32,494 nucleotides of DNA from a virus, in the IMG/VR virus record IMGVR_UViG_3300035670_000844, positions 1 to 32,494 of that record; one strand, 5' to 3'. The translations under genes and the position numbers were made by a program. Position 1 is the stretch's first letter. Every line of letters starts with the position of its first letter. Below are positions 3,819 to 31,433 of this stretch, piece after piece. The notes under the pieces were generated by a model that saw nothing but the letters and a program-made list of their open reading frames with translations, made no database searches and had not been told where the DNA came from.

Positions 3819-5398
3819 TGGGACTGCGCACGCGGCTGTTCAAGGCAATGGGCTTCGAGCCAATGCGGCCGCGGCAGCGGGCATATCAGGGTGCGCGCGT
3901 TAGCAGGCTGACGGCTGACTGGGTGACAAGCGGCACCAGCGCCGACAGCGAGATCAAGTCGAGCTTCAAGAGTCTGCGCAACCGTGCGCGGCAGCTGTGC
4001 CGTGATAACGACTATGCGCGGCAGGCGGTCAGGGCGATCCAGAACAATGTGATCGGGCATGGCATCAGGCACCAAGGACAGGTGCGGATGCTGCGTGGCG
4101 GCCGGTTGGATGAGGCTATTAATGGCCGCATCCATGAGGAATGGGAGCGGTGGATGCACAAGAGCCGCTGTGATGTGAGCGGGATCCTGGGCTTCCACGA
4201 CATCGAGCGGCTGCTGGTGCGCAGCTTGGCGGAGTCGGGCGAGGTGTTCGTGCGGATGATCAAGCGGCCGTTCGGTGATAGCCGTGTGCCGTTTGCGCTG
4301 CAGATCCTTGAGGCGGATTATCTGATTGATGATGATGTGCCGCAGGCGAAGGATGGCAACACGGTGCGGATGGGCATCGAGGTTGATAGCTATCTGCGGC
4401 CGCAGGCTTATCACTTCTACGCGAACCATCCCGGTGATACCTATGCCGGGAACACGCGCACCAATGGCAAGCGTGTGCGGGTGCCTGCTGATGAGGTGAT
4501 CCATCTGTTCCTGCCTGAGCGGCCGGGGCAGACCAGGGGCGTGACGTGGTTTGCGTCGGCGCTGATGCGGCTGCACATGCTGCAGGGCTATGAGGAAGCC
4601 GAGGTGGTGCGTGCTCGGGCGAGCAGCGCACTGATGGGCTTCATCACCAGCCCTGAGGGCGAGCTGGTGGGAGATGAGGTGTATGAGGGCGAGCGGGTCA
4701 GTGAGTTTCAGCCTGGTGTGTTCAAGTATCTGCAGCCCGGCGAAAGCGTGACGGTGCCGGATCTTAACAGCCCGGACGGTCAGCTTGAGCCGTTCACCCG
4801 TTCGATGTTGCGTGCAGTGGCGGCTGGTGTGGGCGTGTCGTTCGAGAGCATCAGCAAGAACTTCTCAGAGAGCAACTACAGCAGCAGCCGGCTGAGTTTG
4901 CTTGAGGAGCGCGACACCTATCGTGTGCTGCAGCGTTACATGATCGAGAACTTCCACCAGCAGGTGTTTGAGAAGTGGCTTGATATGGCGGTGCTGAGCG
5001 GTGCGTTGAGCCTGCCTGGTTATGAGACCAACCCTGATCGCTATCGTGCTAGCAGGTGGGTGCCTCGCAGCTGGGAGTGGGTAGATCCGCAGCGTGAGGT
5101 AGATGCTTATAAGACTGCGGTGCGGTGCGGCTTCAAGACGCTGGGCCAGGTGATTGCTGAGCAGGGCGGTGATCTTGAGGATGTGCTGGTGGCCCGTCAG
5201 GCGGAGCTGGCGATGCTCGATGAGATGGACATCGTGACCGATACCGACCCGAGTGAGGTGACGGAAGGCGGCGCGGTGCAGGCACCATTGGGCATGGGTG
5301 CGGTGCCGGCATTTGAGGAGACAGAGCGGCCCGTTGAGGAGGAGGAGTACGAGGAGCTGTCGGTGCTTGAGGATCCAACCGAGGCGCCTGAGGATTGA
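3818..5398 (+). CDS. Portal protein (lambda gpB family)
   Basis: This protein forms the dodecameric ring at the capsid vertex through which DNA passes. The N-terminal part shows the typical SLRNRARQLCRDNDYARQAV segment followed by NNVIGHGIRHQGQV, as in Phage_portal_2 proteins. The middle contains RSLAESGEVFVRM and the PGQTRGVTWFASAL segment. The SFESISKNFSESNYSSSR motif near the beginning of the last third is characteristic of the family. The 526-residue length matches lambda gpB (533). The C-terminal ~50 residues are acidic. The start ATG overlaps the previous stop (TGATG), and the stop overlaps the start of the capsid polyprotein in the same way. Confidence 0.95.
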   Translation: MGLRTRLFKAMGFEPMRPRQRAYQGARVSRLTADWVTSGTSADSEIKSSFKSLRNRARQLCRDNDYARQAVRAIQNNVIGHGIRHQGQVRMLRGGRLDEAINGRIHEEWERWMHKSRCDVSGILGFHDIERLLVRSLAESGEVFVRMIKRPFGDSRVPFALQILEADYLIDDDVPQAKDGNTVRMGIEVDSYLRPQAYHFYANHPGDTYAGNTRTNGKRVRVPADEVIHLFLPERPGQTRGVTWFASALMRLHMLQGYEEAEVVRARASSALMGFITSPEGELVGDEVYEGERVSEFQPGVFKYLQPGESVTVPDLNSPDGQLEPFTRSMLRAVAAGVGVSFESISKNFSESNYSSSRLSLLEERDTYRVLQRYMIENFHQQVFEKWLDMAVLSGALSLPGYETNPDRYRASRWVPRSWEWVDPQREVDAYKTAVRCGFKTLGQVIAEQGGDLEDVLVARQAELAMLDEMDIVTDTDPSEVTEGGAVQAPLGMGAVPAFEETERPVEEEEYEELSVLEDPTEAPED

Positions 5399-8025
5399 TG
5401 GCAACCGTTGAGGGCCAAGAGATCGACCTGATGCCTACTGATGGCATGAAGGAAGAGGCGCAACGGTATCGGGAATGGAAGGATGAGGGGCGAGCTGGTG
5501 GAACTGAGGTGGCGGCCCGCCGCGCTGGGCAGATCCTGAGCGGTGATGAGCTGAGTGCCGACACAGTGATCACGATGGCGGCATGGTTCGCGCGCCATGA
5601 GGTGGACAAGCAGGGCGAAGGATTCAGCCCTGGCGAGGATGGCTATCCATCAGCTGGGCGTGTGGCATGGGCTGCATGGGGCGGCGATGCTGGTCAGATA
5701 TGGGCTAGCAGCAAAGCGGATAGAATCAAAGCATTACAAGAAAGAAGCGCCGTGGAATTAGAGCGCCCCTATCCGAACGAACATGCTGCGCGGTTGACTG
5801 ATCCTGGGCAGTATGACTCGTTGCGTCGAGAGAACGATGCGGGCGGCTCAGGTATTGACTTCATCTACGGAATCAAGGAAGGCGTGAGCGAGATCCAAGC
5901 GATCCGTTTCAACAGCGCCCGATATTCCGCAGCTGAAGCACGGGCGTGGTTGGCTGAGCATGACTTCAGCCCGATTGAGTTCGAGGAGGCCACCGGCGAT
6001 GGCGAGGCTGCACGCGCTGCAGCTAATGAGCTGAGCGAGGGTGACTTCGTGCAGTGGGATTCAAGTGGCGGCACTGCTCGCGGGCGGATTGAGCATGTGA
6101 TGCGTGAGGGCACGCTGGGTGTGCCCGACACTGAGTTCAGCATTGAAGCTACGGCTGAAGATCCTGCTGCGTTGATCCGCATCTACCGCGAAGGTGAAGA
6201 TGGCTGGGAGGCGACCGAAACACTGGTCGGCCATAAGTTCTCAACGCTCAGGAAGATCGCAGCACTACGCAGCCTGACGGGCAAGTATCAGCGCAGCGAG
6301 ATGACTGCGTTCGATGAGGTGGAGGAACGCATTTATGAGTTTCCCTTCAGCTCGGAGTATCCAGTGGCTCGGTACTTCGGCAACGAAATCCTGAGCCATG
6401 AGGGCGATGCAGCTGATTTGAGTCGCTTGAATGATGGCGCTCCGCTGTTGTTCAACCACAACCCTGATCGAGTGATTGGCGTTGTGGAGCGGGCATATAT
6501 CAACGGCAAACGCCGGCGTGGTTATGCCCGTGTGCGGTTCAGCCGCAACCCATTCGCTCAGGAAATCTTGAGCGATGTACGAGACGGAGTTTTGCGCAAC
6601 GTCTCGTTCGGCTACTCCATTGACAAAATGGAGGAGCGTGGCAGTGGTGACTATGTTGCAACTGCCTGGTCTCCCTATGAGATCAGCGTTGTCTCGGTGC
6701 CGGCTGACCCCGGCGTCGGGATTGGCCGATCTCTGACGGAAGACACTGCTGCTTCGGCAGCACCAACACCCGATCCCATTCCTTCAATGGAAAACACCAC
6801 CCCCGATCTGGCCGTGGTGCGTGCCGAAGCCGCCGAGGCTGAGCGCGCCCGCATCTCGGACATCACTGCCCTGTGCGATAAGCACAGCATGGCAGACCTT
6901 GGCCGCCAGCTGATCGACTCTGGTCGTTCTATCGACGAGGCTCGCGCTGCTGTGCTCGACAAACTCGACATTCAACAGGAGCCCGTGAACATGAGCGCCG
7001 CTGACATCGGCCTGACTGAGAAGGAGAGCCGCAGCTTCTCCTTCCTGCGTGCCATCAACTACCTGGCCAATCCGGCCGACCGCGCTGCCCGTGAGGCTGC
7101 TGCGTTTGAGATCGAAGCGTCTGATGCTGCTGCTGCCAAGCTCGGCCGTCAGTCCCGTGGCATCACCATCCCCCAAGATGTGCTGCGTCGCGACCTGAAC
7201 GTCGGTGCTGCTACCGCCGGCGGCAACCTGGTTGCTACCGAGCTGGATGCTGGTTCGTTCATCGACCTGCTCCGCAATGCCTCTGCTCTGGATCAGGCTG
7301 GCGCCACCGTGCTGACCGGCCTGACCGGCAACGTTGCGATCCCCCGCCAGTCCGGTGCTGGTACTGCTTACTGGGTGGCTGAGTCTGGCTCGCCCACCGA
7401 AAGCCAGCAGACCGTGGATCAGGTGAGCCTGACCCCTCGGACTGTGGCTGCGTTCACCGATTACAGCCGTCGTCTGATGATCCAGTCCTCCATCGACGTG
7501 GAGAACATGGTGCGTAGCGATCTGGCTCGTGTGATCGCTCTGAAGATCGACGCTGCTGGTCTTTATGGCACCGGCTCCTCCAGCGAGCCCCTGGGTCTGA
7601 AGAACACCACCGGCATCGGCACCGAAGACTTCGCTGCTGCTGCTCCTACCTTCGCTGAGGTGGTGGCACTGGAGAGCGATGTGGCTACTGCCAACGCTCT
7701 GCTGGGTAGCCCTGTCTACCTGATGAACGCTGCTATGCGCGGCAACCTCAAGACCACGAAGAAAGACGCCGGTTCCGGCATCTTCATCATGGAAAACGGT
7801 GAGGTGAACGGCTACCGCGGTGTGCTGTCCAACCAAGTCGCCTCTGGCGATCTGTGGTTCGGCAACTTCGCTGACCTGATCATCGGCTACTTCTCCGGTC
7901 TGGACATCATGGTGGACCCCTACACCAACAGCACCTCCGGGACTGTGCGTGTGGTTGCCATGCAGGACTGCGACATCGCGTGTCGTCATCCAGAGTCCTT
8001 CAGCCGCGGCAACGACACCCTCTGA
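5398..8025 (+). CDS. Prohead protease - major capsid polyprotein (HK97 type) with extra N-terminal domains
   Basis: One frame of 875 residues holds the capsid maturation functions. Numbering is from the ATG at 5398, which overlaps the portal stop. Residues 1-115 carry a phage domain (MPTDGMKEEAQR ... RHEVDKQGEGFSPGEDGYP ... AWAAWGGDAG). Residues ~150-200 resemble an XkdF-like domain and ~213-255 a DUF2945/Tudor-like segment. Residues ~305-445 are an HK97-family prohead protease with likely catalytic His354 (FNHNPDRVIG) and Ser403 (LRNVSFGYS). A charged helical delta/scaffold-like linker (~470-530) leads to the HK97-fold capsid domain (~535-875). The capsid part changes to a narrow high-expression codon set, and an in-frame ATG with a strong ribosome-binding site lies at 6991. 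The processing sites are not known. Confidence 0.92.
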   Translation: MATVEGQEIDLMPTDGMKEEAQRYREWKDEGRAGGTEVAARRAGQILSGDELSADTVITMAAWFARHEVDKQGEGFSPGEDGYPSAGRVAWAAWGGDAGQIWASSKADRIKALQERSAVELERPYPNEHAARLTDPGQYDSLRRENDAGGSGIDFIYGIKEGVSEIQAIRFNSARYSAAEARAWLAEHDFSPIEFEEATGDGEAARAAANELSEGDFVQWDSSGGTARGRIEHVMREGTLGVPDTEFSIEATAEDPAALIRIYREGEDGWEATETLVGHKFSTLRKIAALRSLTGKYQRSEMTAFDEVEERIYEFPFSSEYPVARYFGNEILSHEGDAADLSRLNDGAPLLFNHNPDRVIGVVERAYINGKRRRGYARVRFSRNPFAQEILSDVRDGVLRNVSFGYSIDKMEERGSGDYVATAWSPYEISVVSVPADPGVGIGRSLTEDTAASAAPTPDPIPSMENTTPDLAVVRAEAAEAERARISDITALCDKHSMADLGRQLIDSGRSIDEARAAVLDKLDIQQEPVNMSAADIGLTEKESRSFSFLRAINYLANPADRAAREAAAFEIEASDAAAAKLGRQSRGITIPQDVLRRDLNVGAATAGGNLVATELDAGSFIDLLRNASALDQAGATVLTGLTGNVAIPRQSGAGTAYWVAESGSPTESQQTVDQVSLTPRTVAAFTDYSRRLMIQSSIDVENMVRSDLARVIALKIDAAGLYGTGSSSEPLGLKNTTGIGTEDFAAAAPTFAEVVALESDVATANALLGSPVYLMNAAMRGNLKTTKKDAGSGIFIMENGEVNGYRGVLSNQVASGDLWFGNFADLIIGYFSGLDIMVDPYTNSTSGTVRVVAMQDCDIACRHPESFSRGNDTL
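6977..6993 (+). promoter_or_regulatory. Internal ribosome-binding site and ATG for free capsid protein
   Basis: AGGAG at 6977-6981 is followed after 9 bases by an ATG at 6991, in frame with the polyprotein (codon 532). Initiation here would give a 344-residue protein starting MSAADIGLTEKESR, about the size of a complete HK97-type capsid subunit. The polyprotein itself starts without a site of similar strength, so the internal site would help make capsid in excess over protease. Use of the site is an inference. Confidence 0.6.
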
Positions 8026-16684: not shown

Positions 16685-17181
16685 CATATCCGGCACTGAT
16701 CCCATCAACGCGGGTCTTCAGCCCCGGCAACACGCCACAAACGCGGCAGACCTCGCTCAGTGGCATGAGCGATGGGTTCAGGCGCGGCAATCGGCGCATC
16801 GGCCAAATGCTGCAGCTGAACTACCTGAACCTGGTCGAGGCTGATTTCCTGCTGCTCAAAGCGCATTACATCGACCGACAGGGCACCTACGACATCTTTT
16901 TCCTGTCGACCGAGACATGGAACGGCATGGCAACACCGCCGGTGCCGCTGCTGTCGGATTACGCCTGGAAATACAGCGCACCGCTGGTGGTCAGTCACGC
17001 ATCCTGCGGCCGGTACAACGTCGAGGTGCAGCTTGAAACGCAACCGATTGATCTGAGTGATCTGATCATTGATGGCGGACTGGCTGGCGCAACACCAGTC
17101 AGGGACTATATTGTCGATGGTGGCCTTGCCGCAGCTACGCCAGTTCGCACCTATGTGATCAGCCCTGGAGGCGCCGCATGA
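16681..17181 (+). CDS. Minor tail protein, tandem paralogue B with C-terminal repeat
   Basis: The first ~120 residues parallel the previous protein: PS...FSPGNTPQTRQTSLSG, IGQMLQLNYLNLVEADFLLL, AHYIDRQGTYDIFF and YNVEVQLE align with its matching strands. The extra C-terminus has a repeat, LIIDGGLAGATPVRDYIV then DGGLAAATPVRTYVI, about 17 residues per copy, that could form strands linking to a fibre. The start overlaps upstream as ATGA and the stop overlaps the fibre start as ATGA; the fibre has a GGAGG site inside this gene. Confidence 0.65.
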   Translation: MTYPALIPSTRVFSPGNTPQTRQTSLSGMSDGFRRGNRRIGQMLQLNYLNLVEADFLLLKAHYIDRQGTYDIFFLSTETWNGMATPPVPLLSDYAWKYSAPLVVSHASCGRYNVEVQLETQPIDLSDLIIDGGLAGATPVRDYIVDGGLAAATPVRTYVISPGGAA

Positions 17182-18752
17182 GCATCACCCTCTCAGCACT
17201 GCAGAAGCAGCGGCGTGATACGGCTGCTAACTGGACGACGCAGAACCCTACGCTGCTGGCGGGTGAACTTGGTTACGAGTCTGATACTGGCTACTGGAAA
17301 GTCGGTGATGGCACCACCGCATGGACTTCCCTTGCATATATCCCCGGCTCCAAGCTCAGCGCCTATCCGCTGGTCAACGTTGATATCGCCAGCAATGCAG
17401 AGATCGCTGTTAGCAAGCTAGCTGATGGCACCGCACGGCAACTGCTGCAGACCGATGCTGCCGGCACTGGCGTTGAGTGGGCCAGCAACATTGATGTGCC
17501 CGGCACGCTGGATGTAACCGGCGCCGCGACGTTTGATGCTGCTGTCACGATTCAAGGCGATCTGACGGTCAACGGCACGACCACCACGATCGACACGCAG
17601 CACCTGATCGTTGAAGACAAGAATGTCGTTATTGGTCAAGTCACCACCCCAACTGATGTAACGGCTGACGGCGGCGGCATCACGCTCAAGGGCACCACCG
17701 ATAAGACCATCAACTGGGTGGATGCGACCGATGCGTGGACGTTCAGCGAGCACGTCAACCTCGCAAGCGGCAAGGCGTATTACATCAACGGCACGCAGGT
17801 GCTCAGCGGCAGCGCCTTGGGTAGTGGCGTCACGGGTAGCAGCCTGACCAGTGTTGGCACCATCGGCACCGGCGTGTGGCAGGGCACCACGGTTGCAACG
17901 GGTTACGGTGGCACTGGCATTGCAGGCAGCTACACAGACGGCCAGCTCCTGATCGGTAAGACCGATGGCACACTGGCCAAAGCAACGCTCACAGCTGGCA
18001 GCAACGTCAGCATCACTAACGGCGATGGCAGCATCAGCATTGCCAGCACAGATACGACTTACACCGCAGGCGATGGCCTGGATCTGGTCGGCACCACGTT
18101 CTCCGCTGACCTGAAGGCCAATGGCGGCCTGGTGATCGAATCAACGGAGCTGGCAGTCGATCTGGGCGCTAGCAGCATCACCGGCACGCTTGGCGTCGCA
18201 GATGGCGGCACGGGCCAAACCACCTACACCGATGGTCAGCTGCTGATCGGCAACAGCACCGGCAACACGCTTGCCAAATCGACGCTGACAGCTGGTAGTG
18301 GCATCAGCATCACCAACGGATCAGGCAGCATCACGATTGCGTCCACGGTGAGCGGTGGCCTGCCGACTACAGGTGGCACGCTGACTGGCGACCTGCTGAT
18401 GGATAACCAGACCGATGTGCGGTTTGGCGAAGCCACGGCGAATGGCACCAACTGGGTGGCCTTCCAAGGCCCGGCAAGCATCGCGGCGAATGTCACTTGG
18501 ACCCTGCCTAACGCTGATGCCACGGTTTCAGGCCATGCACTTAAGAGTGACGGCGCCGGCAACTTGAGCTGGGGCACTGCAGGTGGGGCCACTGGCGGAG
18601 GCACGGATGATGTGTTCTACGAGAACGCTCAAACTGTCACCACCAATTACACTTTGACTACCAACAAAAACGCCATGAGCGCAGGACCGATCACGATTAA
18701 CTCGGGGGTGACGGTGACTGTTCCGTCAGGCGCCTCTTGGGTGGTGGTGTAA
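17178..18752 (+). CDS. Tail fibre protein with repeated GGTG...DGQLLIG units
   Basis: This 524-residue Gly/Thr/Ser-rich fibre opens with a short virion-attachment domain (RRDTAANWTTQNPTLLAGEL, then WKVGDGTTAWTSLAY) shared with the protein at 8889. Residues ~124-200 match a fibre element with IQGDLTVNGTTTTID and LIVEDKNVVIG. Two similar blocks at ~244-290 and ~343-389 (GGTG, DGQLLIG, LAKxTLTAGS, SITNGxGSI) follow. The C-terminus INSGVTVTVPSGASWVVV is a common end of such fibres. It is one of four consecutive fibre-like genes and probably mediates host contact. GGAGG (17167-17171) is six bases before the start. Confidence 0.85.
   Translation: MSITLSALQKQRRDTAANWTTQNPTLLAGELGYESDTGYWKVGDGTTAWTSLAYIPGSKLSAYPLVNVDIASNAEIAVSKLADGTARQLLQTDAAGTGVEWASNIDVPGTLDVTGAATFDAAVTIQGDLTVNGTTTTIDTQHLIVEDKNVVIGQVTTPTDVTADGGGITLKGTTDKTINWVDATDAWTFSEHVNLASGKAYYINGTQVLSGSALGSGVTGSSLTSVGTIGTGVWQGTTVATGYGGTGIAGSYTDGQLLIGKTDGTLAKATLTAGSNVSITNGDGSISIASTDTTYTAGDGLDLVGTTFSADLKANGGLVIESTELAVDLGASSITGTLGVADGGTGQTTYTDGQLLIGNSTGNTLAKSTLTAGSGISITNGSGSITIASTVSGGLPTTGGTLTGDLLMDNQTDVRFGEATANGTNWVAFQGPASIAANVTWTLPNADATVSGHALKSDGAGNLSWGTAGGATGGGTDDVFYENAQTVTTNYTLTTNKNAMSAGPITINSGVTVTVPSGASWVVV
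17907..18344 (+). repeat. Two diverged fibre repeat units within one coding region
   Basis: Two protein blocks of about 47 residues (encoded at 17907-18047 and 18204-18344) share GGTG, YTDGQLLIG, LAKxTLTAGS and SITNGxGSIxIAS. They are separated by about 50 other residues. This looks like an old internal duplication of a fibre shaft element. Confidence 0.75.
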
Positions 18753-25499: not shown

Positions 25500-25794
25500 T
25501 GAGACGCGCCTGGTCACCCGGCGCTCCGCCCGTGATCAGATCCACCTTGCTTGGAATTGGGAGTGCGCCTACTGCGGCGATCCGCTTGGCCGTAGCCCCA
25601 CCCTTGACCATGTGGTGCCGAAGGTCCACGGTGGCCTGACCGTCCGTGAAAACCTTGTGAGTTGTTGCCTGATGTGCAACAGCCAGAAAGGCCACAAGCC
25701 GGTCTTCGAGTGGTATCGCCAGCAGCCGTTCTGGTCCGCCAGCCGCGAATGGGCCATTGCTCAGTGGCTCAACCAGGCCGCAGCATCTGATTAA
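25480..25794 (+). CDS. HNH endonuclease with paired CxxC zinc motifs
   Basis: This 104-residue protein is an HNH nuclease: WECAYCGDPLGRSPTLDHVV with Cys29/Cys32 and the Asp43-His44 core, VPKVHGGLTVRENLVSCCLM with a second pair (Cys63, Cys66), and the terminal CNSQKGHKP. Small HNH proteins of this kind act in packaging when next to terminase genes, but here it lies at the junction of the late and early blocks, so a mobile endonuclease is as likely. The start is GTG at 25480. The end overlaps a leftward gene by 26 bases. Confidence 0.85.
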   Translation: MDQTHIDETRLVTRRSARDQIHLAWNWECAYCGDPLGRSPTLDHVVPKVHGGLTVRENLVSCCLMCNSQKGHKPVFEWYRQQPFWSASREWAIAQWLNQAAASD

Positions 25795-25945
25795 GGTATA
25801 TCTCCGCCTGAAACCAGTCACTTGAATATCGGCACACGCCACCGACGCAGCTGCGGTAATACACCTCGCCCTTCTCCGCTGGCAGCAGTGTCTCGATATA
25901 ACCGCCGTCGCGGTCATCTCGGCTGATCACTTCAGGTCCAAGCAT
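25769..25945 (-). CDS. Small leftward protein (58 aa), function unknown
   Basis: The product begins MLGPEVISRDDRDGGYIETL and continues LPAEKGEVYYRSCVGGVCRY, ending SSDWFQAEIYLNQMLRPG. A strong ribosome-binding site (GAGGAGG on the minus strand, plus-strand 25953-25959) sits seven bases before the ATG at 25943-25945. It is the last gene of the leftward operon and overlaps the previous gene by 19 bases. Two cysteines and several aromatics suggest a small beta-rich fold. Confidence 0.65.
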   Translation of the reverse strand: MLGPEVISRDDRDGGYIETLLPAEKGEVYYRSCVGGVCRYSSDWFQAEIYLNQMLRPG

Positions 25946-26139
25946 TGCCGTGCCTCCTCATGATGAATCCATGTTTTGAGGTCGCGCACATAATCGCGCA
26001 ACAATTCAGCCTGCCGCAGGTGAAATGGGTCGCGGCTGACAAACCACAGCGTGTTGTGGCGGTCAACAGCTTGCAGCGCCTGATGGATCAGCGGGCACCA
26101 GTCAGCCCGCACAGGCGTGTTCCATTCGCGCTTTGACAC
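25927..26139 (-). CDS. Small leftward protein (70 aa), function unknown
   Basis: I chose the GTG at 26137-26139, giving a protein that starts SKREWNTPVRADWCPLIHQA after the initiator and continues LQAVDRHNTLWFVSRDPFHL and RQAELLRDYVRDLKTWI. The frame is open further upstream to 26220 but would then overlap the preceding gene by 62 bases. The C-terminal half is a long amphipathic helix. No family was recognised. Confidence 0.55.
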   Translation of the reverse strand: MSKREWNTPVRADWCPLIHQALQAVDRHNTLWFVSRDPFHLRQAELLRDYVRDLKTWIHHEEARQCLDLK

Positions 26140-26158
26140 GGCACCAGATCGGCCTCTA

Positions 26159-26497
26159 TCAGTCTGGCGAATCCAATGCTCGATCAAACATCTCACATAC
26201 CACTGCGTAGCGTCCGCCACTACGTTTGGCTTCAGGGATCATCAGCTCACATCGCTGTGTTGTCATCTCCCACTGTTGGCAATCCCAACACATCACCGGC
26301 GCGGTTGGTGGCCTGATGCTTGCAATGGCAATGGCAAATATCTCATTGGCACATTGCAATGCCTCCTGCAGCTGGATGGTCTTGGTATCAATCTCGACCT
26401 GGTGCTCGGGCTTCGGTCCAAGGATTACCCGAGCGTGCCAAGTTCGATCAGCACGGTCGCAGACCAGCAACAAGCGGCCGCCGTGCAGTCTGATCAT
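26159..26497 (-). CDS. Small leftward protein with Cys motif (112 aa)
   Basis: The protein begins MIRLHGGRLLLVCDRADRTW and has a helix with QLQEALQCANEIFAIAIASI in the middle. Near residue 71 lies CWDCQQWEMTTQRC, then MIPEAKRSGGRYAVVCEMFD, a probable metal-binding knuckle (CxxC...C...C). The start overlaps the previous stop as ATGA. The function is unknown; nucleic-acid or protein binding is plausible. Confidence 0.65.
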   Translation of the reverse strand: MIRLHGGRLLLVCDRADRTWHARVILGPKPEHQVEIDTKTIQLQEALQCANEIFAIAIASIRPPTAPVMCWDCQQWEMTTQRCELMIPEAKRSGGRYAVVCEMFDRALDSPD

Positions 26498-26715
26498 TCA
26501 TCCTCGCCGTAACTCGGCTGGTGATACAGCCGTTCTAGCTGCATCGTCACTGGCTCATCGGCATCCGTAATGTCAATGGGATCAGTCTGATCTCGCACGA
26601 CAAACACCAGCCGCGAGCCATGGGGCTTGAGCACCAGTAGGCCAATGCGATCACTGCGGCACAGGATCCGCAGCGCCTGACGCTCAAGCCAATTCAGCCG
26701 GAGATGTTCGAGCAT
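26494..26715 (-). CDS. Small leftward protein (73 aa), function unknown
   Basis: I chose the ATG at 26713-26715, which overlaps the previous gene by 22 bases and gives MLEHLRLNWLERQALRILCR followed by SDRIGLLVLKPHGSRLVFVV. The fold is probably helix-strand-strand with an acidic C-terminus (DITDADEPVTMQLERLYHQP). A longer open frame upstream encodes an unlikely Cys/Arg-rich extension. Confidence 0.6.
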   Translation of the reverse strand: MLEHLRLNWLERQALRILCRSDRIGLLVLKPHGSRLVFVVRDQTDPIDITDADEPVTMQLERLYHQPSYGEDE

Positions 26716-26936
26716 GACTCCATCTTGGCAATTAGTCGTTGCAGATACCACTCCGCTTTGCGTGCATCTTCCAATGCGTCTCCTTTGAGCCACATGCGAA
26801 TCATGTATTTGAGCGCCTGGCCTTGCAAGTAAGCCGGAACCATGTGCGGCGCATCGCTGATTACAGCTTCAATGAAGTCGATCGCCTCGACGGTGCCCGC
26901 TTGGTAGTGCGGCGGGTGGTTGACCGGATCAGGCAC
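26694..26936 (-). CDS. DUF3310-type small phage protein
   Basis: This protein carries the DUF3310 pattern: PVNHPPHYQAGTVEAIDFIE near the N-terminus, ALKYMIRMWLKGDALEDARK and AEWYLQRLI near the end. DUF3310 occurs in many phages, sometimes in nucleotide-metabolism proteins, without an agreed activity. I chose the GTG at 26934-26936 because GAGGAG lies nine bases before it and it overlaps the previous stop by 8 bases. The open frame extends upstream to 27056 but runs through the preceding gene. Confidence 0.8.
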   Translation of the reverse strand: MPDPVNHPPHYQAGTVEAIDFIEAVISDAPHMVPAYLQGQALKYMIRMWLKGDALEDARKAEWYLQRLIAKMESCSNISG

Positions 26937-27168
26937 GGGGAGGCGCTCCTCGCTTGGGTAGACGTTCAAGGTCGGCCGCCATCTCTGCAGCAGCGCGCAG
27001 CATGGTGCTGAGCGGGATACCACTGATCGAGCGGTCTGCCATCCAACGGATAGCAAGGCGGTAGCCGTGGCTGGCGTTGCCGTTGCCGATACGCCGGGCT
27101 AATGCGATCTCCTCGTCCGTCACGCGGATGTTCAGCGTGCGGTTGCGGATCCTGGCGGCTATGACCAT
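26929..27168 (-). CDS. Putative RHH/HTH-like DNA-binding protein
   Basis: This 79-residue protein starts MVIAARIRNRTLNIRVTDEE and continues IALARRIGNGNASHGYRLAI, the strand-helix-helix opening typical of ribbon-helix-helix or Arc-like regulators. The remainder is helical with an Arg/Pro-rich tail. The ATG at 27166-27168 overlaps the previous stop by 10 bases. It is the only regulator-like gene inside the small-gene cluster. Confidence 0.6.
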   Translation of the reverse strand: MVIAARIRNRTLNIRVTDEEIALARRIGNGNASHGYRLAIRWMADRSISGIPLSTMLRAAAEMAADLERLPKRGAPPRA

Positions 27169-27425
27169 TTGGCCCCCAGCAAATGCTGCCGGCATACTTC
27201 GATCGCTTGCTGCGCCTGCTTCTCGGTCAGCACTGATTCGGTCAAATCCATGGCCTTGACCACCTTCGCGAACAGCTCCGGGTAATAGGTGTTGCGGAAG
27301 TTCGCGGCGATGTCGCGGGCGAACTCCTCCCATAGGCCGGTGTAGGTGCCGCATGTGCGACCGCTGGCCCGGTACAGCGCCTCGATCATTTCGTGGCGTT
27401 GATCGTCCAAGAAGGTGGCTTTCAT
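27159..27425 (-). CDS. Small helical leftward protein (88 aa), function unknown
   Basis: The product begins MKATFLDDQRHEMIEALYRA and continues SGRTCGTYTGLWEEFARDIA, with later helices (LTEKQAQQAIEVCRQHLLGA). The start is an ATG that overlaps the previous stop as ATGA. It is almost fully helical, with two Cys. No family recognised. Confidence 0.65.
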   Translation of the reverse strand: MKATFLDDQRHEMIEALYRASGRTCGTYTGLWEEFARDIAANFRNTYYPELFAKVVKAMDLTESVLTEKQAQQAIEVCRQHLLGAKWS

Positions 27426-27634
27426 TCGTTGAGGTACTGGCGGAGATGAAGCAGCTCAGCACAAAGCTGGTCGCGGTTCTTGATGCCGGTGATGCCCCGT
27501 AGCTGATCAATGCGGATGTCGATCAACAATCGGAGACGATCACGCTCTGACGCTTGGCCAGCCTTGAAGGTGTTGCTGCCCTCAAGCAGGCTATAGAGGC
27601 GGGCGCGTGCTGCGGCCGAATTAGGCATGGACAT
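27422..27634 (-). CDS. Small helical leftward protein (70 aa), function unknown
   Basis: The product reads MSMPNSAAARARLYSLLEGS, NTFKAGQASERDRLRLLIDI, RIDQLRGITG and a last helix ending LRQYLNE. The second ATG at 27626-27628 is an equally possible start. The end overlaps the next gene as ATGA. The helices would form a two-helix bundle or a coiled coil. Confidence 0.6.
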   Translation of the reverse strand: MSMPNSAAARARLYSLLEGSNTFKAGQASERDRLRLLIDIRIDQLRGITGIKNRDQLCAELLHLRQYLNE

Positions 27635-27797
27635 TGGGATCAGTAACGGATTCAGGGTTGAGCCATTCGATCTGATTCCACCAAGGGAGCCATGTGTCGG
27701 CGGCGATCAGCTTGGCCTCCGTCAGGCTGTGCGCCTGCACGCACTCGACCACGTTGGCGGCCTTGATCGTGAAGTAAAAGCGGCGGGGGAAAGTCAT
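27621..27797 (-). CDS. Small leftward protein (58 aa), function unknown
   Basis: The frame from the ATG at 27795-27797 encodes MTFPRRFYFTIKAANVVECV, QAHSLTEAKLIAADTWLPWW and NQIEWLNPES. The start overlaps the previous stop as ATGA. A strand-helix fold with a Trp-rich patch (WLPWWNQIEW) suggests a protein-interaction surface. No family was recognised. Confidence 0.65.
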   Translation of the reverse strand: MTFPRRFYFTIKAANVVECVQAHSLTEAKLIAADTWLPWWNQIEWLNPESVTDPNVHA

Positions 27798-27997
27798 AGA
27801 AACTGCTCCACTATCTTCCGAATTACTCCTTTTTGTCTAATCCAATCAGTGCCCACATTATCAAGCATTTCTTGCACAAACAATTCGTGCATTGCATCTT
27901 GAATTGCCTTTCTTTCTTTCAGGGTCAGCGAAACGCCAATCAAATCATGCAGTTCAAACAAGGCTTTTTGTAGATCCGAATATGTAGGCCGGCTCAC
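27794..27997 (-). CDS. Small leftward protein (67 aa), function unknown
   Basis: The start is GTG at 27995-27997, seven bases after GGAGG, and overlaps the previous stop as GTGA. The product after the initiator is SRPTYSDLQKALFELHDLIG, VSLTLKERKAIQDAMHELFV and a basic final helix (IRQKGVIRKIVEQFL). It is helical and charged. Upstream frame extension is possible but runs through the membrane-protein gene. Its AT-rich codons contrast with its neighbours, a sign of recent acquisition. Confidence 0.65.
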   Translation of the reverse strand: MSRPTYSDLQKALFELHDLIGVSLTLKERKAIQDAMHELFVQEMLDNVGTDWIRQKGVIRKIVEQFL

Positions 27998-28128
27998 TTG
28001 CGCACCTCCACATAGGCTTGGTTGCCACTGTGGGTGGCGCTGGACTGGCTGCCTGCCTCGATGCCGATCATGGCGAACACGGCGGCGACGACCAGAAGGC
28101 AGATGGCGTTGTTGATGCGGGTGATCAT
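27994..28128 (-). CDS. Very small membrane or secreted peptide (44 aa)
   Basis: The frame from ATG 28126-28128 gives MITRINNAICLLVVAAVFAM followed by IGIEAGSQSSATHSGNQAYV. The N-terminal 25 residues are a clear membrane or signal-like segment with a Cys at 10. The rest is polar. It may insert in the host inner membrane; the role is unknown. Confidence 0.6.
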   Translation of the reverse strand: MITRINNAICLLVVAAVFAMIGIEAGSQSSATHSGNQAYVEVRK

Positions 28129-28478: not shown

Positions 28479-28486
28479 TCACACGG
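28464..28486 (-). other. Perfect 8-bp stem-loop overlapping a stop codon
   Basis: The arms CCGTGTGA (28464-28471) and TCACACGG (28479-28486) are exact reverse complements around a 7-base loop. The stop codon of the leftward zinc-ribbon gene (28479-28481) is part of the stem. No T-run is present. An operator or an mRNA hairpin are the two readings. Confidence 0.6.
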
Positions 28487-28712
28487 CCTCGGTGCCCACC
28501 GCGATCTCCACCGGCACCCGCAGCACTGGCTTGCTCTGGCCCTTGGCGCCAAACCGTTCCCAGCCGACCACTGCCGTATGGACCGGCAGCTCGATCGTGT
28601 ACCACACATGCTTGCAGCTATCGCATTTGCGTTTCCTGGTCACCCGGTCAACCTCGTGCCCGTTGGTCGCAATGGCCAAGATCCGGCCGCTGCCGCATTT
28701 GGGACAGTTCAC
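28479..28712 (-). CDS. Zinc-ribbon protein (77 aa), NrdR/Ogr-like
   Basis: Two Cys pairs, CPKC at residues 3-6 and CDSC at 30-33, frame a basic linker with the segment EVDRVTRKRKCDSCKHVWYT. That is the zinc-ribbon layout of NrdR N-termini and Ogr-type activators. After it come two strands and a VPVEIAVG end. It may regulate transcription. Alternatively it is a general nucleic-acid-binding protein, since no ATP-cone domain is present. Confidence 0.75.
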   Translation of the reverse strand: MNCPKCGSGRILAIATNGHEVDRVTRKRKCDSCKHVWYTIELPVHTAVVGWERFGAKGQSKPVLRVPVEIAVGTEAV

Positions 28713-28753
28713 AGTGCCGCTATCGTGCTGGTGTACCCCACTGGTCTAGCACA
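28713..28753. promoter_or_regulatory. Divergent intergenic region, possible promoters
   Basis: This is the 41-bp gap between a leftward and a rightward gene. Rightward, TTGGGA (28699-28704) and TATCGT (28721-28726) are 16 bp apart and match the sigma-70 boxes at four of six bases each. GTGCT (28725-28729) and AGCAC (28748-28752) are inverted arms flanking the start. Promoter activity is a guess. Confidence 0.25.
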
Positions 28754-28951
28754 ATGCAGTTCGGTGAGTGGATGCTGGTCGAGGTTTCACCAGAACAGCA
28801 ATTCGAGCTAGAAAAACAAGCCCGCACCCTGCTCTCAAGCCCGGATGCAGGCATCATGGCGGCTGCTCTCCTCAAGCAAGCTCACTACCAGCAGCAGCTC
28901 CTTCAGCAGGCGGTCAATGAGATCGCCCGCCTCGAGCTGGAGCTGATGTAG
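28754..28951 (+). CDS. Small coiled-coil protein (65 aa), rightward
   Basis: The product begins MQFGEWMLVEVSPEQQFELE and continues in a Gln/Leu-rich helix (LLKQAHYQQQLLQQAVNEIA). It converges tail-to-tail with the SSB-like gene, with only one base between them. It is the sole rightward gene within the leftward block, so it may be separately regulated. No family was recognised. Confidence 0.6.
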   Translation: MQFGEWMLVEVSPEQQFELEKQARTLLSSPDAGIMAAALLKQAHYQQQLLQQAVNEIARLELELM

Positions 28952-28952
28952 C

Positions 28953-29273
28953 TCAGAACATGTCGTCGCTGGTGTCGATGTTCAGCACCACGCCATCGGT
29001 GGCCGTAGCCAGCTTCTGCGCAGCACTGCCAGGATCCACCCAGTCCCGCGGCGGTTGCGCCACCGCGCTCACATAGGCCAGCCCCTTCTGGCTGGTCTTC
29101 TTCCAGCCGCTGATCGGCACCTGGACGCTGCCGTACTGATCCGGCGTCTGGCTCATCACAAAGCGGCAGAGCGCATCCAGCTCCTCAACTTTGATGTTCA
29201 TCATCCCCGTGAAGTCCACCTTGCTATCAGGCTTGGTCGACTTGAAGATGCTCAGATTCAACTTGAAGCTCAT
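28953..29273 (-). CDS. SSB-like protein of the recombination operon
   Basis: This 106-residue protein opens MSFKLNLSIFKSTKPDSKVD and is beta-rich with strands MMNIKVEELDALCRF and GSVQVPISGWKKTSQKG-LAYVSAV. The C-terminus VLNIDTSDDMF is acidic and ends in Phe, like the tail of bacterial SSB (DDDIPF). It is in the same operon as RecT- and RecE-like genes. Single-strand DNA binding is the likeliest role, inferred from fold pattern, tail and context. The start overlaps upstream as ATGA. Confidence 0.5.
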   Translation of the reverse strand: MSFKLNLSIFKSTKPDSKVDFTGMMNIKVEELDALCRFVMSQTPDQYGSVQVPISGWKKTSQKGLAYVSAVAQPPRDWVDPGSAAQKLATATDGVVLNIDTSDDMF

Positions 29274-29461
29274 GATTGTTCGTTGGTAGTGGTGTTGGCC
29301 TGTTCGTATTGCTCCACCCCGGCCAATGGGTAGAGCACGAAGCCCGGCGTGCGGAAATATGCCGGACCTTTGCCTGCCTTGCGCCAGCGCATCAGCGTGT
29401 CAGGGTGCAACCCCCAACGCTGCGCAAGCTGGGTGGCAGTCAGGTATTCAGAAGAGTTCAT
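29270..29461 (-). CDS. AlpA/excisionase-like helix-turn-helix protein
   Basis: The product from the ATG at 29459-29461 is MNSSEYLTATQLAQRWGLHP followed by DTLMRWRKAGKGPAYFRTPG, the winged-HTH of AlpA/Xis-type small DNA-binding proteins (TxxQLAxRWGxHPxTLxRWRxxGxGPxYFR). It is 63 residues long. Its gene starts inside the RecT-like gene end (14-base overlap) and its stop overlaps the SSB-like start. It could be an excisionase or an operon regulator. Confidence 0.8.
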   Translation of the reverse strand: MNSSEYLTATQLAQRWGLHPDTLMRWRKAGKGPAYFRTPGFVLYPLAGVEQYEQANTTTNEQS

Positions 29462-30101
29462 CGCTCTCAGGTTCAGGTTCAGGTGCCGGCTCGGGGATGG
29501 CAGCGTTGAGATCAGCAACCTGATCGCTTACGGTTACCGGCTCAATGTCGACCACCTCCTCCTGCGTCTGGATGCCAACCAGCAGCTCGGGGATGTAAAG
29601 CCGACCCCAGAAGGCCGCGGCCCGGTAGCGGATCATTAGCTCAGGCATCGTCGCCCACTTGGAGCCCGATTTCGTGGACCAGCCTTCTTTCCGGGCCATG
29701 GTCATGCTCACGGTCGGACCCTTGAGATCCTTCCCGCTGCTCAGCTCGGTAGCCACGCAGTAGCAGGCCAGGCTTTCGCCCGTGCCGCTCATCTCATACC
29801 GGAGCGGACTAAAGCGCCCGCAGCCGTTAATCAGGCCGATGATGAACTGGCTGGACCAGCTTGGACGGCCATGAATGATGTGCAGGTTCTGCATCACCTG
29901 AAACGGGCTCATCCGCATCCGATTTGCGATCTCAAGCGCGACCAAGCAGTTGGCGAACCCCTGCTGGCCTTGAAACTGCGGCGGGATCAGCGTGCTGCTG
30001 GCCAGTGCCTTGGCGATCCGTTGGGCGTCCTCGAAGGCCTGAATCCCCGAGAAGACGGAGCCCGCGGGCTGGGTAGTGGTGAGTGCTGTGCTGTCAGTCA
30101 T
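29448..30101 (-). CDS. RecT-like single-strand annealing protein
   Basis: This 217-residue protein resembles phage RecT annealases: FSGIQAFEDAQRIAKALASS, FANCLVALEIANRMRMSPFQ, VMQNLHIIHGRPSWSSQF and KWATMPELMIRYRAAAFWGR are typical. The last ~40 residues are an acidic, Pro-rich tail ([15 protein letters not shown]) ending in Phe like an SSB tail. I chose the ATG at 30099-30101, which overlaps the exonuclease stop (TGATG); a TTG one codon earlier is unlikely. With the RecE-like exonuclease it should carry out double-strand end recombination of phage DNA. Confidence 0.88.
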   Translation of the reverse strand: MTDSTALTTTQPAGSVFSGIQAFEDAQRIAKALASSTLIPPQFQGQQGFANCLVALEIANRMRMSPFQVMQNLHIIHGRPSWSSQFIIGLINGCGRFSPLRYEMSGTGESLACYCVATELSSGKDLKGPTVSMTMARKEGWSTKSGSKWATMPELMIRYRAAAFWGRLYIPELLVGIQTQEEVVDIEPVTVSDQVADLNAAIPEPAPEPEPESDELF

Positions 30102-30931
30102 CAATACATCTCGATTTCAGTGGTCTGTGTGGCGGCCTCGCCGGTCATCCATGCCGGCAGGCTGATCGGTTCGATCCGATCGCTGTAGGCAGGCCAGTGG
30201 CCTGATGCCTTGCACTCCGCCAGCGTCTGCAGGTCGCGCATGGCGATCTCGTAGCCGCGCTCGATCATCTGCTCATCAGCGGCATAGACACCAACCGCGA
30301 ACGGTGGTTTCTTCTCCACTGCGATAAAGATGAACGCTGCAGGCTTCATGCCAGTGGCAGCTTCCAAGCCCGCGGTGTACCACCCGGCCTGACAGTGGTA
30401 TCTCCATTTAGCGATGCTGCGCCGGAACTCCCGAGGGCTCGCATCCTCGGTGGTTTTAAGATCGACCATAATGCCGTGCTTGGTCAGCCAGTCCGGCCGG
30501 CACTTGCACTGCAGCCCGGTGGTCGGCTCCGTCCACATGTGCGTGGTCTCGGCCTCGCCATCCATGTTCAGCAGCATCGCTGCAGCCGGATGGCTCAGCA
30601 CGGCACGGCCCATGTGCATGACAAGATCGGCATCCTCACGGCTCAGCACGGTCTTGCCGTTGGCCTCAGCCTCAAACGCTGCCCATGCTTCCTTTCCTGC
30701 CTTGGTGCGGCGGTCAAGGCCATCAGGCGCGATGGCATACTCGGCATCCCATTTGTGCAGTTCGAGCACATGGGTGTGAACTGCGCTGCCGATGCGCATG
30801 GCTGGCGTCGGCTCGGGGATGACCCGCTTCGGGTCGATGTAGCGCGCCCAGTAGTGCAACGGGGATCGCGCGATGAGATCCAAATGCGACTTTGAGATCG
30901 CAGGGTGCGCGTGGTAGTCGGCGTTCTCCAT
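30101..30931 (-). CDS. RecE-like exonuclease (PD-(D/E)XK fold)
   Basis: This 276-residue protein begins MENADYHAHPAISKSHLDLI and contains the PD-(D/E)XK pattern: MRIGSAVHTHVLE with probable Glu57, CRPDWLT with Asp147, VDLKTT with Asp157 and Lys159, and YHCQAGWY with Gln181. This matches YqaJ/RecE-like exonucleases (DUF3799-like), which resect DNA ends to 3' strands for the annealase. The start ATG (30929-30931) lies within an inverted repeat. The frame stays open upstream, but no credible start or conserved segment lies there. First gene of the leftward operon. Confidence 0.88.
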   Translation of the reverse strand: MENADYHAHPAISKSHLDLIARSPLHYWARYIDPKRVIPEPTPAMRIGSAVHTHVLELHKWDAEYAIAPDGLDRRTKAGKEAWAAFEAEANGKTVLSREDADLVMHMGRAVLSHPAAAMLLNMDGEAETTHMWTEPTTGLQCKCRPDWLTKHGIMVDLKTTEDASPREFRRSIAKWRYHCQAGWYTAGLEAATGMKPAAFIFIAVEKKPPFAVGVYAADEQMIERGYEIAMRDLQTLAECKASGHWPAYSDRIEPISLPAWMTGEAATQTTEIEMY

Positions 30932-30958
30932 AGGGTGTGGCGACTTGCGGCACCCTAT
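30930..30958 (-). promoter_or_regulatory. Inverted repeat at the recE-like start: operator or start-occluding hairpin
   Basis: ATAGGGTG (30930-30937) and CACCCTAT (30951-30958) are perfect 8-bp inverted arms with centres 21 bp apart, two DNA turns. On the minus-strand mRNA the 3' arm overlaps the AUG of the recE-like gene. That fits a dimeric repressor site, or a hairpin that hides the start codon. Just upstream a TTGCAC ... TATAGG pair with 15-bp spacing is a weak promoter possibility. Confidence 0.5.
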
Positions 30959-31034
30959 AGCCTGTTGCCATCGAGTGCAACCCCATGCAATCTGGACGTA
31001 ATCGCCTACAGTGGCCGGAATCGCTAAGTTCCTC
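30959..31034. other. Divergent intergenic region between leftward and rightward early genes
   Basis: This 76-bp space must hold the control signals for both the recombination operon and the rightward HNH/helicase genes, unless transcription enters from outside. No sigma-70 boxes of good quality were recognised. Confidence 0.3.
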
Positions 31035-31433
31035 ATGGCTAAGCAATGCTGCATTGATGGCTGCCAGAACGACACCAGCAAAGGAGCCCGCGGCATGTGC
31101 GGATTGCACGCGCAAAGGATGCGCCGCTATGGAGATCCCAATTTTATTACCCCAGAAGCTCAACGTCGAGCAAACAATCGAGCAGCTCAACTCGCTCGGT
31201 TTGATGCAATTAAAGAAAACACCTATAGAAAATTTTATGGCCGCCATGAACATCGAATCATTGCAGAGCAGATGCTTGGAAGACCGCTAGAGCGAGGCGA
31301 GATTGTGCATCATATAGATGGAGATAAGCACAATAACAATCCAGCAAATCTTAAAGTAATGACTCAATCAGAGCACATGAAATTGCACAAAAGTGAAATG
31401 TTGGCGGCTAGAAAAGCTAAACATGGCTATTGA
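31035..31433 (+). CDS. HNH endonuclease with N-terminal Cys motif
   Basis: I chose the ATG at 31035 (MAKQCCIDGCQNDTSKGARG); a GTG at 31011 is less likely. The N-terminus has a CxxxC...MCGLHAQRMRRYGDP motif common in phage homing HNH proteins. The HNH core is EIVHHIDGDKHNNNPANLKV with His92/His93, Asp95 and Asn106, and His114/His118 in SEHMKLH. The gene is distinctly AT-richer than its neighbours, which suggests mobility. Its end overlaps the helicase start by 11 bases. This 132-residue gene sits at the early-gene control region. Confidence 0.88.
   Translation: MAKQCCIDGCQNDTSKGARGMCGLHAQRMRRYGDPNFITPEAQRRANNRAAQLARFDAIKENTYRKFYGRHEHRIIAEQMLGRPLERGEIVHHIDGDKHNNNPANLKVMTQSEHMKLHKSEMLAARKAKHGY

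Follow-up and report, generated by a model that had tools for sequence, protein, structure and literature searches.

The window, as we call the whole stretch of DNA analysed here, is a 32,494-base IMG/VR virus record, both halves of which are related to the Synechococcus siphophages S-CBS1 and S-CBS3; judged by these similarities, its source is an S-CBS1/S-CBS3-like siphophage of picocyanobacteria. The structural genes (TerL, portal and capsid) are read rightward, and a leftward run carries exonuclease VIII and RecT at its start and a block of small genes at its end, where it meets a convergent HNH gene. Read directly from the frames, the block consists of 11 consecutive leftward frames, named g1 to g11 from upstream to downstream (positions 28128 to 25769, Table 1), which range from 44 to 112 aa. 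Of their 10 junctions, nine are overlaps, of 4 to 22 bases, and one is a gap of 19 bases: from g1 to g11, eight overlaps of 4, 4, 14, 4, 10, 8, 22 and 4 bases, then the gap of 19 and a last overlap of 19. An earlier note on this DNA had the coordinates, strand, sizes, overlap range and single gap right, but counted ten frames and eight overlaps. At its end, g11 shares 26 bases with the convergent HNH gene, and a dCTP deaminase gene is found near the block. The genes upstream of the block, from exonuclease VIII to a zinc-ribbon protein, precede it in relatives in identical order. Within this leftward early run, which is that of an S-CBS-type siphophage, the block makes up the distal half; we take the run to be transcribed early because of its gene content, and a promoter scan returned sites at chance level.

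Table 1. Genes of the block and of the upstream part of the leftward run (fractions refer to the 64 relatives that span the whole block)
Feature	Coordinates	Strand	Length	Description	Evidence
Upstream genes	28479..31096	-		Upstream part of the leftward run: exonuclease VIII, RecT, HTH/excisionase-like, conserved 106-aa protein, zinc-ribbon protein	PHROGs
g1	27994..28128	-	44 aa	Core; one N-terminal hydrophobic segment	64/64; dN/dS 0.26
g2	27794..27997	-	67 aa	GTG start; AT-rich insert in the g1/g3 slot, without family	
g3	27621..27797	-	58 aa	Trp-rich, PHROG 22131; most widely shared core gene	phrog_22131 E=4e-26; dN/dS 0.13
g4	27422..27634	-	70 aa	Core; helical by appearance	64/64; S-CBS3 gp28
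g5	27159..27425	-	88 aa	Core; two halves	64/64; S-CBS3 gp27 73%
g6	26929..27168	-	79 aa	RHH-like by pattern only; g5/g7 slot	23/64
g7	26694..26936	-	80 aa	Core; GTG start; stand-alone DUF3310, nucleotide-kinase-type	PF11753 E=2e-15
g8	26494..26715	-	73 aa	Core	64/64; fixed overlaps with g7 and g9
g9	26159..26497	-	112 aa	Core; N-terminal Gp2-like domain (1-64) and C-terminal four-Cys motif	
g10	25927..26139	-	70 aa	GTG start; frequent accessory gene, g9/g11 slot	50/64; dN/dS 0.20
g11	25769..25945	-	58 aa	Last core gene	64/64; S-CBS3 gp25 75%

A scan of viral contigs with g3 yielded 201 relatives, 80 of which were kept; 64 loci hold both flanking genes and thus span the whole block. Eight genes (g1, g3, g4, g5, g7, g8, g9 and g11) are present in every one of these 64 loci in an order that is never altered, g3 being found in all of them by construction as the scan query, and the loci being partly redundant assemblies with 27 to 44 distinct protein sequences per core gene. 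The overlaps recur as well, between g7 and g8 in 76/76 cases, between g8 and g9 (always -4) in 74/74 and between g10 and g11 in 55/55. Median dN/dS values lie between 0.09 and 0.30 across the ten testable genes, that is, all but g2, for which selection could not be estimated because its sole counterpart is one near-identical contig; by these ratios, the core genes are under purifying selection. Based on the constant core order, the recurrent overlaps and the low dN/dS, the frames of the block are real genes and not chance.

Four exchangeable slots interrupt this core: g1/g3 (holding g2 here), g3/g4 (empty here), g5/g7 (holding g6 here) and g9/g11 (holding g10 here). Elsewhere, the g3/g4 slot holds a small protein that forms a family by itself (74 loci) or, in S-CBS3, a sigma factor, and the g5/g7 slot is occupied by HTH proteins or, in several relatives, by ThyX. 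Since the constant set and the cargo can be separated in this way, we argue that the former belongs to the basic programme of the phage and is not a collection of defence counters. The block is a fixed, presumably early module of a widespread group of cyanosiphophages.

The earlier description of the block as mostly of unknown function applies to nine of the 11 genes, with only g7 and g9 being readable. Profile searches against the PDB with g3, g4, g5, g6, g8, g9 and g11 gave no meaningful match. The reading of g6 as RHH-like came from a pattern seen by eye and was not borne out, as no RHH family matched at E<=1 in Pfam or PHROGs. The gene g3 is also present in S-CBS1, S-CBS3, KBS-S-2A and S-H1, and g11 comes after g9 in the loci L174-L179 as well. 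The insert g2 has a GC content of 41% (GC3 40%) versus ∼58% GC for the window, and beyond the one near-identical contig no relatives of it were found, with none in phage isolates.

The DUF3310 assignment of g7, already made in the earlier note, is correct: the match to PF11753 reaches 56.9 bits against a curated cut-off of 24 and covers positions 1-60 of the 60 in the profile. This protein also falls into nucleotide kinase families in PHROGs (best E=5e-24). T7 gp1.7, which is annotated as a nucleotide kinase, bears DUF3310 at its C-terminus, and g7 aligns with this C-terminal part only (27% over 75 aa, E=1e-4 in a single comparison). A Tad4 match to g7 in Pfam, the sole anti-defence lead, was rejected at 14.8 bits versus a cut-off of 25 (E=0.035). 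In a distant sister clade found with g9 (L146, L148-L173 and L180), a P-loop dNMP kinase (PF21448 E=8e-15; phrog_139 E=3e-41) lies directly before g9, at the place held by g7 and g8 in the window, and such a kinase is found upstream of g9 in ∼28 sister loci, including the L146 and L155 clades, where it occupies the g7-g8 place. Four loci of another group (L175, L176, L178 and L179) have DUF3310 instead of the dNMP kinase. Altogether, either DUF3310 or a nucleotide kinase is located upstream of g9 in 178 of the 181 g9 loci with enough sequence. The phage dNMP kinases showed no sequence relation to DUF3310 in these searches; based on position, we infer that one replaces the other at a single place, which fits a nucleotide role. 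ThyX in the g5/g7 slot of several relatives and the dCTP deaminase gene near the block agree with such a role as well. Nucleotide supply is the likely role predicted for g7 by analogy, and the swap would provide independent support for a nucleotide role of DUF3310, a widespread and poorly explained domain.

The second readable protein, g9, seems to be composed of two parts. Among 34 diverse g9 proteins, C70, C73, C83 and C101 are invariant, together with W76, P88, E89, G94 and G95, and the C-terminus is thus probably zinc-binding. Residues 1-64 align with residues 1-60 of the 64-aa T7 Gp2 (hhalign 82%, P=1e-5), while 300 column shuffles reached 6.6% at most and most other families of the block gave ∼0%. 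When the two g9 clades were run apart against Gp2, the registers were compatible, with 17% for the window clade alone and 82% for the other. In Pfam, Gp2 (PF16857) was the only family matched by ten sister g9 proteins (six of ten, best E 8e-4), the one bit score shown being 13 bits and thus under the Pfam cut-off of 27; in PHROGs, phrog_1307 (Gp2) came out on top for 6/34 g9 proteins (best E 3.4e-4). Gp2 was the single best model for the sister proteins among both the 24,736 Pfam and the 38,880 PHROG models searched, and the g9 sequence of the window alone gave no Gp2 match in either collection. Conversely, a Gp2 profile searched over the 19,123 open frames of all loci placed the g9 family first and g3 second. 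We do not claim g3 as Gp2-like, as it rose barely above shuffles, nor the protein family of the g3/g4 slot (slot B), which stayed within them.

The predicted structure of g9 complicates this likeness. An earlier AlphaFold model built from 18 close sequences was poor (pLDDT 61), and the fold search performed with it was disregarded for this reason. The model built from 34 sequences (pLDDT 91.9, pTM 0.81) displays three strands followed by a long helix (beta-beta-beta-alpha). In Gp2, two strands are followed by a helix and then by a third strand, from which R56 and R58 reach the beta-prime jaw of RNA polymerase (PMC3778932, PMC3541766); this contact strand is absent from the g9 model, in which no strand follows the helix. 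At the positions of R56 and R58, the g9 of the window has S60 and R62. All members of the window clade keep R62, which the sister clade lacks, and the residue equivalent to R56 varies. In the model, the first strand of the g9 sheet could sit where Gp2 has its third. Since a confident model lacks the RNAP-contact strand of Gp2, we do not file g9 as a member of the Gp2 family. A Foldseek search with the g9 model did not list Gp2 and preferred weak integrase- and AP2-like matches: BFVD gave N-terminal domains of integrases (E 0.06; 60 columns aligned at 2.5 A), and the PDB entries listed include an AP2 domain. Every fold match lay above E 0.004.

These matches, together with the topology of the confident model, fit another reading of g9, as a DNA-binding regulator made of a beta-beta-beta-alpha domain of the integrase-Arm/AP2 kind and a zinc knuckle; the operon would then serve replication and the regulation of phage genes, and the host RNA polymerase would be left untouched. 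In the locus L176 (4381-4800), an HTH is combined with this same four-Cys motif, which also speaks for a DNA-binding function. Against it, no AP2, integrase or Arm model in Pfam or PHROGs matched g9 in sequence, AP2 as a sequence family was rejected because a profile comparison with five phage AP2 domains gave 1%, which is the level of shuffles, and none of the fold matches reached E 0.004. We regard this DNA-binding reading as rather unlikely, if a serious contender. That g9 works like Gp2 on the host RNA polymerase is itself a minority possibility, to which we give around a third of our belief.

The genes that accompany g9 in sister loci point to transcription. In ∼23 of them, the dNMP kinase and g9 stand in an unbroken row with a gene for a sigma70-type factor. 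In the L146 clade the two halves of g5 are separate genes, and in L146 itself the segment resembling the C-terminal half is fused to an RNAP alpha-CTD (PF03118 E=4e-9). The upstream zinc-ribbon gene has a counterpart in L146 that additionally encodes a sigma region-4 HTH. No sigma factor of the relatives' kind was detectable in the window phage; as the sigma factor and alpha-CTD proteins are absent from the window, they support a transcription theme there by association.

The closest parallels to this arrangement are found in three phages. In S-CBS3 (NC_015465), gp25, gp27, gp28 and gp30 correspond to g11, g5, g4 and g3, and the HNH and endolysin genes lie on the same side of the block as in the window; unlike in the window, g7, g8 and g9 are not detectable and a sigma factor stands between g3 and g4. 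S-CBS1 (NC_016164) shares g3 and exonuclease VIII, but is without most of the block. T7 has a series of genes, 1.7-1.8-2 (encoding a nucleotide kinase, a protein of unknown function and the RNAP inhibitor Gp2), that resembles g7-g8-g9 in combining, in this order, a DUF3310 protein, a small protein and a Gp2-like protein, with g7 matching gp1.7 and the g9 profile matching Gp2. The likeness has its limits: g8 is similar neither to gp1.8 nor to Gp2, g7 is without the N-terminal part of gp1.7, and g9 differs from Gp2 by its added four-Cys C-terminus and its third strand.

The reading that we favour, tentatively and at somewhat less than even confidence, is that the block forms an early module specific to this lineage, which serves nucleotide supply and possibly the takeover of host transcription. 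A single early transcript with translational coupling would lead to the co-production of the core proteins. Much like T7 gp1.7, g7 likely increases or alters the supply of nucleotides for phage DNA. The Gp2-like N-terminal domain of g9, which is linked to a four-Cys C-terminal domain presumed to hold zinc, may attach to the RNA polymerase of the host and dampen or redirect the transcription of host genes. Sister operons carry sigma factors and a protein with an RNAP alpha-CTD in the corresponding region, which would fit the same purpose, and g1, g3, g4, g5, g8 and g11 probably act as partners in this early programme.

The earlier note had supposed that such a cluster might hold host takeover or anti-defence factors. 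The former part of this idea is favoured by the Gp2-like profile of g9 and the nucleotide-kinase-type g7, and gains further support from the sister operons, which have a sigma factor, an RNAP alpha-CTD, a dNMP kinase and ThyX at related positions. The latter part found no support for the core. As an anti-defence or host-toxicity island, each small protein of the block would obstruct one host system, which would suit the small early genes, the exchangeable slots and the lineage-specific AT-rich insert g2. DUF3310 proteins of mycobacteriophages have moreover been reported in overexpression screens to inhibit growth (PMC10700055, PMC11373665, PMC9339283), so that a second effect of g7 on the host is possible, and the lactococcal protein SaV, which has the same domain, interacts with the abortive-infection protein AbiV according to a statement in PMC11373665. 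Yet, all members of the clade have the eight core genes, and in a fixed order, where typical anti-defence cargo is expected to be patchy, and no anti-defence family was matched in Pfam or PHROGs. We thus consider this explanation of the block as a whole improbable, while an anti-defence role is possible for the exchangeable slots, g2 above all. Alternatively, the core could consist mainly of small replication or recombination helpers that extend the exonuclease VIII/RecT module, with the resemblance to Gp2 being a convergence on a common beta-beta-alpha pattern. The block does lie in the same gene run as exonuclease VIII and RecT, and the weak Gp2-like match of g3 and the pattern seen by eye in the slot-B proteins suggest that this pattern may be general. 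However, g9 scored above all shuffles, Gp2 was the best model for its sister proteins in both collections, and the kinase-g9 neighbourhood recurs, which makes the helper explanation unlikely too.

Returning to the favoured module for nucleotide supply and possible transcription takeover, a more specific proposal, which we put forward as speculative and rather doubtful, is that cyanobacterial siphophages possess their own class of host-RNAP inhibitor, made of a Gp2-derived domain with a rearranged third strand and a fused four-Cys zinc domain. It would be co-inherited with a nucleotide kinase and, depending on the clade, either a sigma factor encoded by the phage or a protein with an RNAP alpha-CTD, and thus form a compact transcription-and-nucleotide takeover module. 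Among the papers that we searched, none describes a Gp2-type inhibitor for a cyanophage. Little is known of the way in which siphophages seize transcription and metabolism in picocyanobacteria, which are major primary producers; the block offers eight fixed, ordered genes from a group of hundreds of contigs, and for two of these genes the predictions can be tested biochemically. A scan of genomes with g5 found no copy in any cyanobacterial genome scanned; its single match was a contig binned as a Hyphomonadaceae MAG, which is a phage of the same architecture and which we read as a mis-binned relative.

The best candidate within the block for cargo of recent acquisition is g2, which occupies one of its exchangeable slots (see table). 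Between the core genes g3 and g4, the relatives carry a family of small proteins, found at 74 loci (e.g., L082:311-592) and absent from the window, that have a beta-beta-alpha-beta look when judged by eye.

The four-Cys motif that forms the C-terminal part of g9 (CxxCxxW...C...P...G..A..C) appears to be a mobile domain that has no name, since it is joined to a helix-turn-helix-like segment in a related viral locus (L176:4381-4800). Genes of a transcription type were also seen in sister loci. At L155:3612-5309, a Sigma70 factor, a dNMP kinase and g9 are contiguous, an arrangement shared by about 22 similar loci, and the dNMP kinase and g9 overlap by approximately 50 bases. Another phage gene (L146:7354-7755, present also in L148, L149, and L150) encodes an RNA polymerase alpha C-terminal domain (PF03118) fused to a segment related to the C-terminal half of the core protein g5.

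How far apart the two end genes lie in the relative L020 (264-4839) suggests that the contig is missing a few kilobases between its right end and its left. Its further genes include a DNA methylase, a fused protease and capsid protein, and a protein with a tropism determinant domain.

Features of the window and their coordinates
Feature	Coordinates	Description
g2	27794-27997	AT-rich orphan between two core genes; 4-base overlap on either side
Methylase	649-1392	N6/N4-type DNA methylase adjoining the terminase
Protease-capsid fusion	5395-8025	Single 876-residue frame: prohead protease (Peptidase_S78) and HK97-type capsid protein, including a TUDOR-like stretch
Mtd_N protein	17178-18752	Major tropism determinant N-terminal domain
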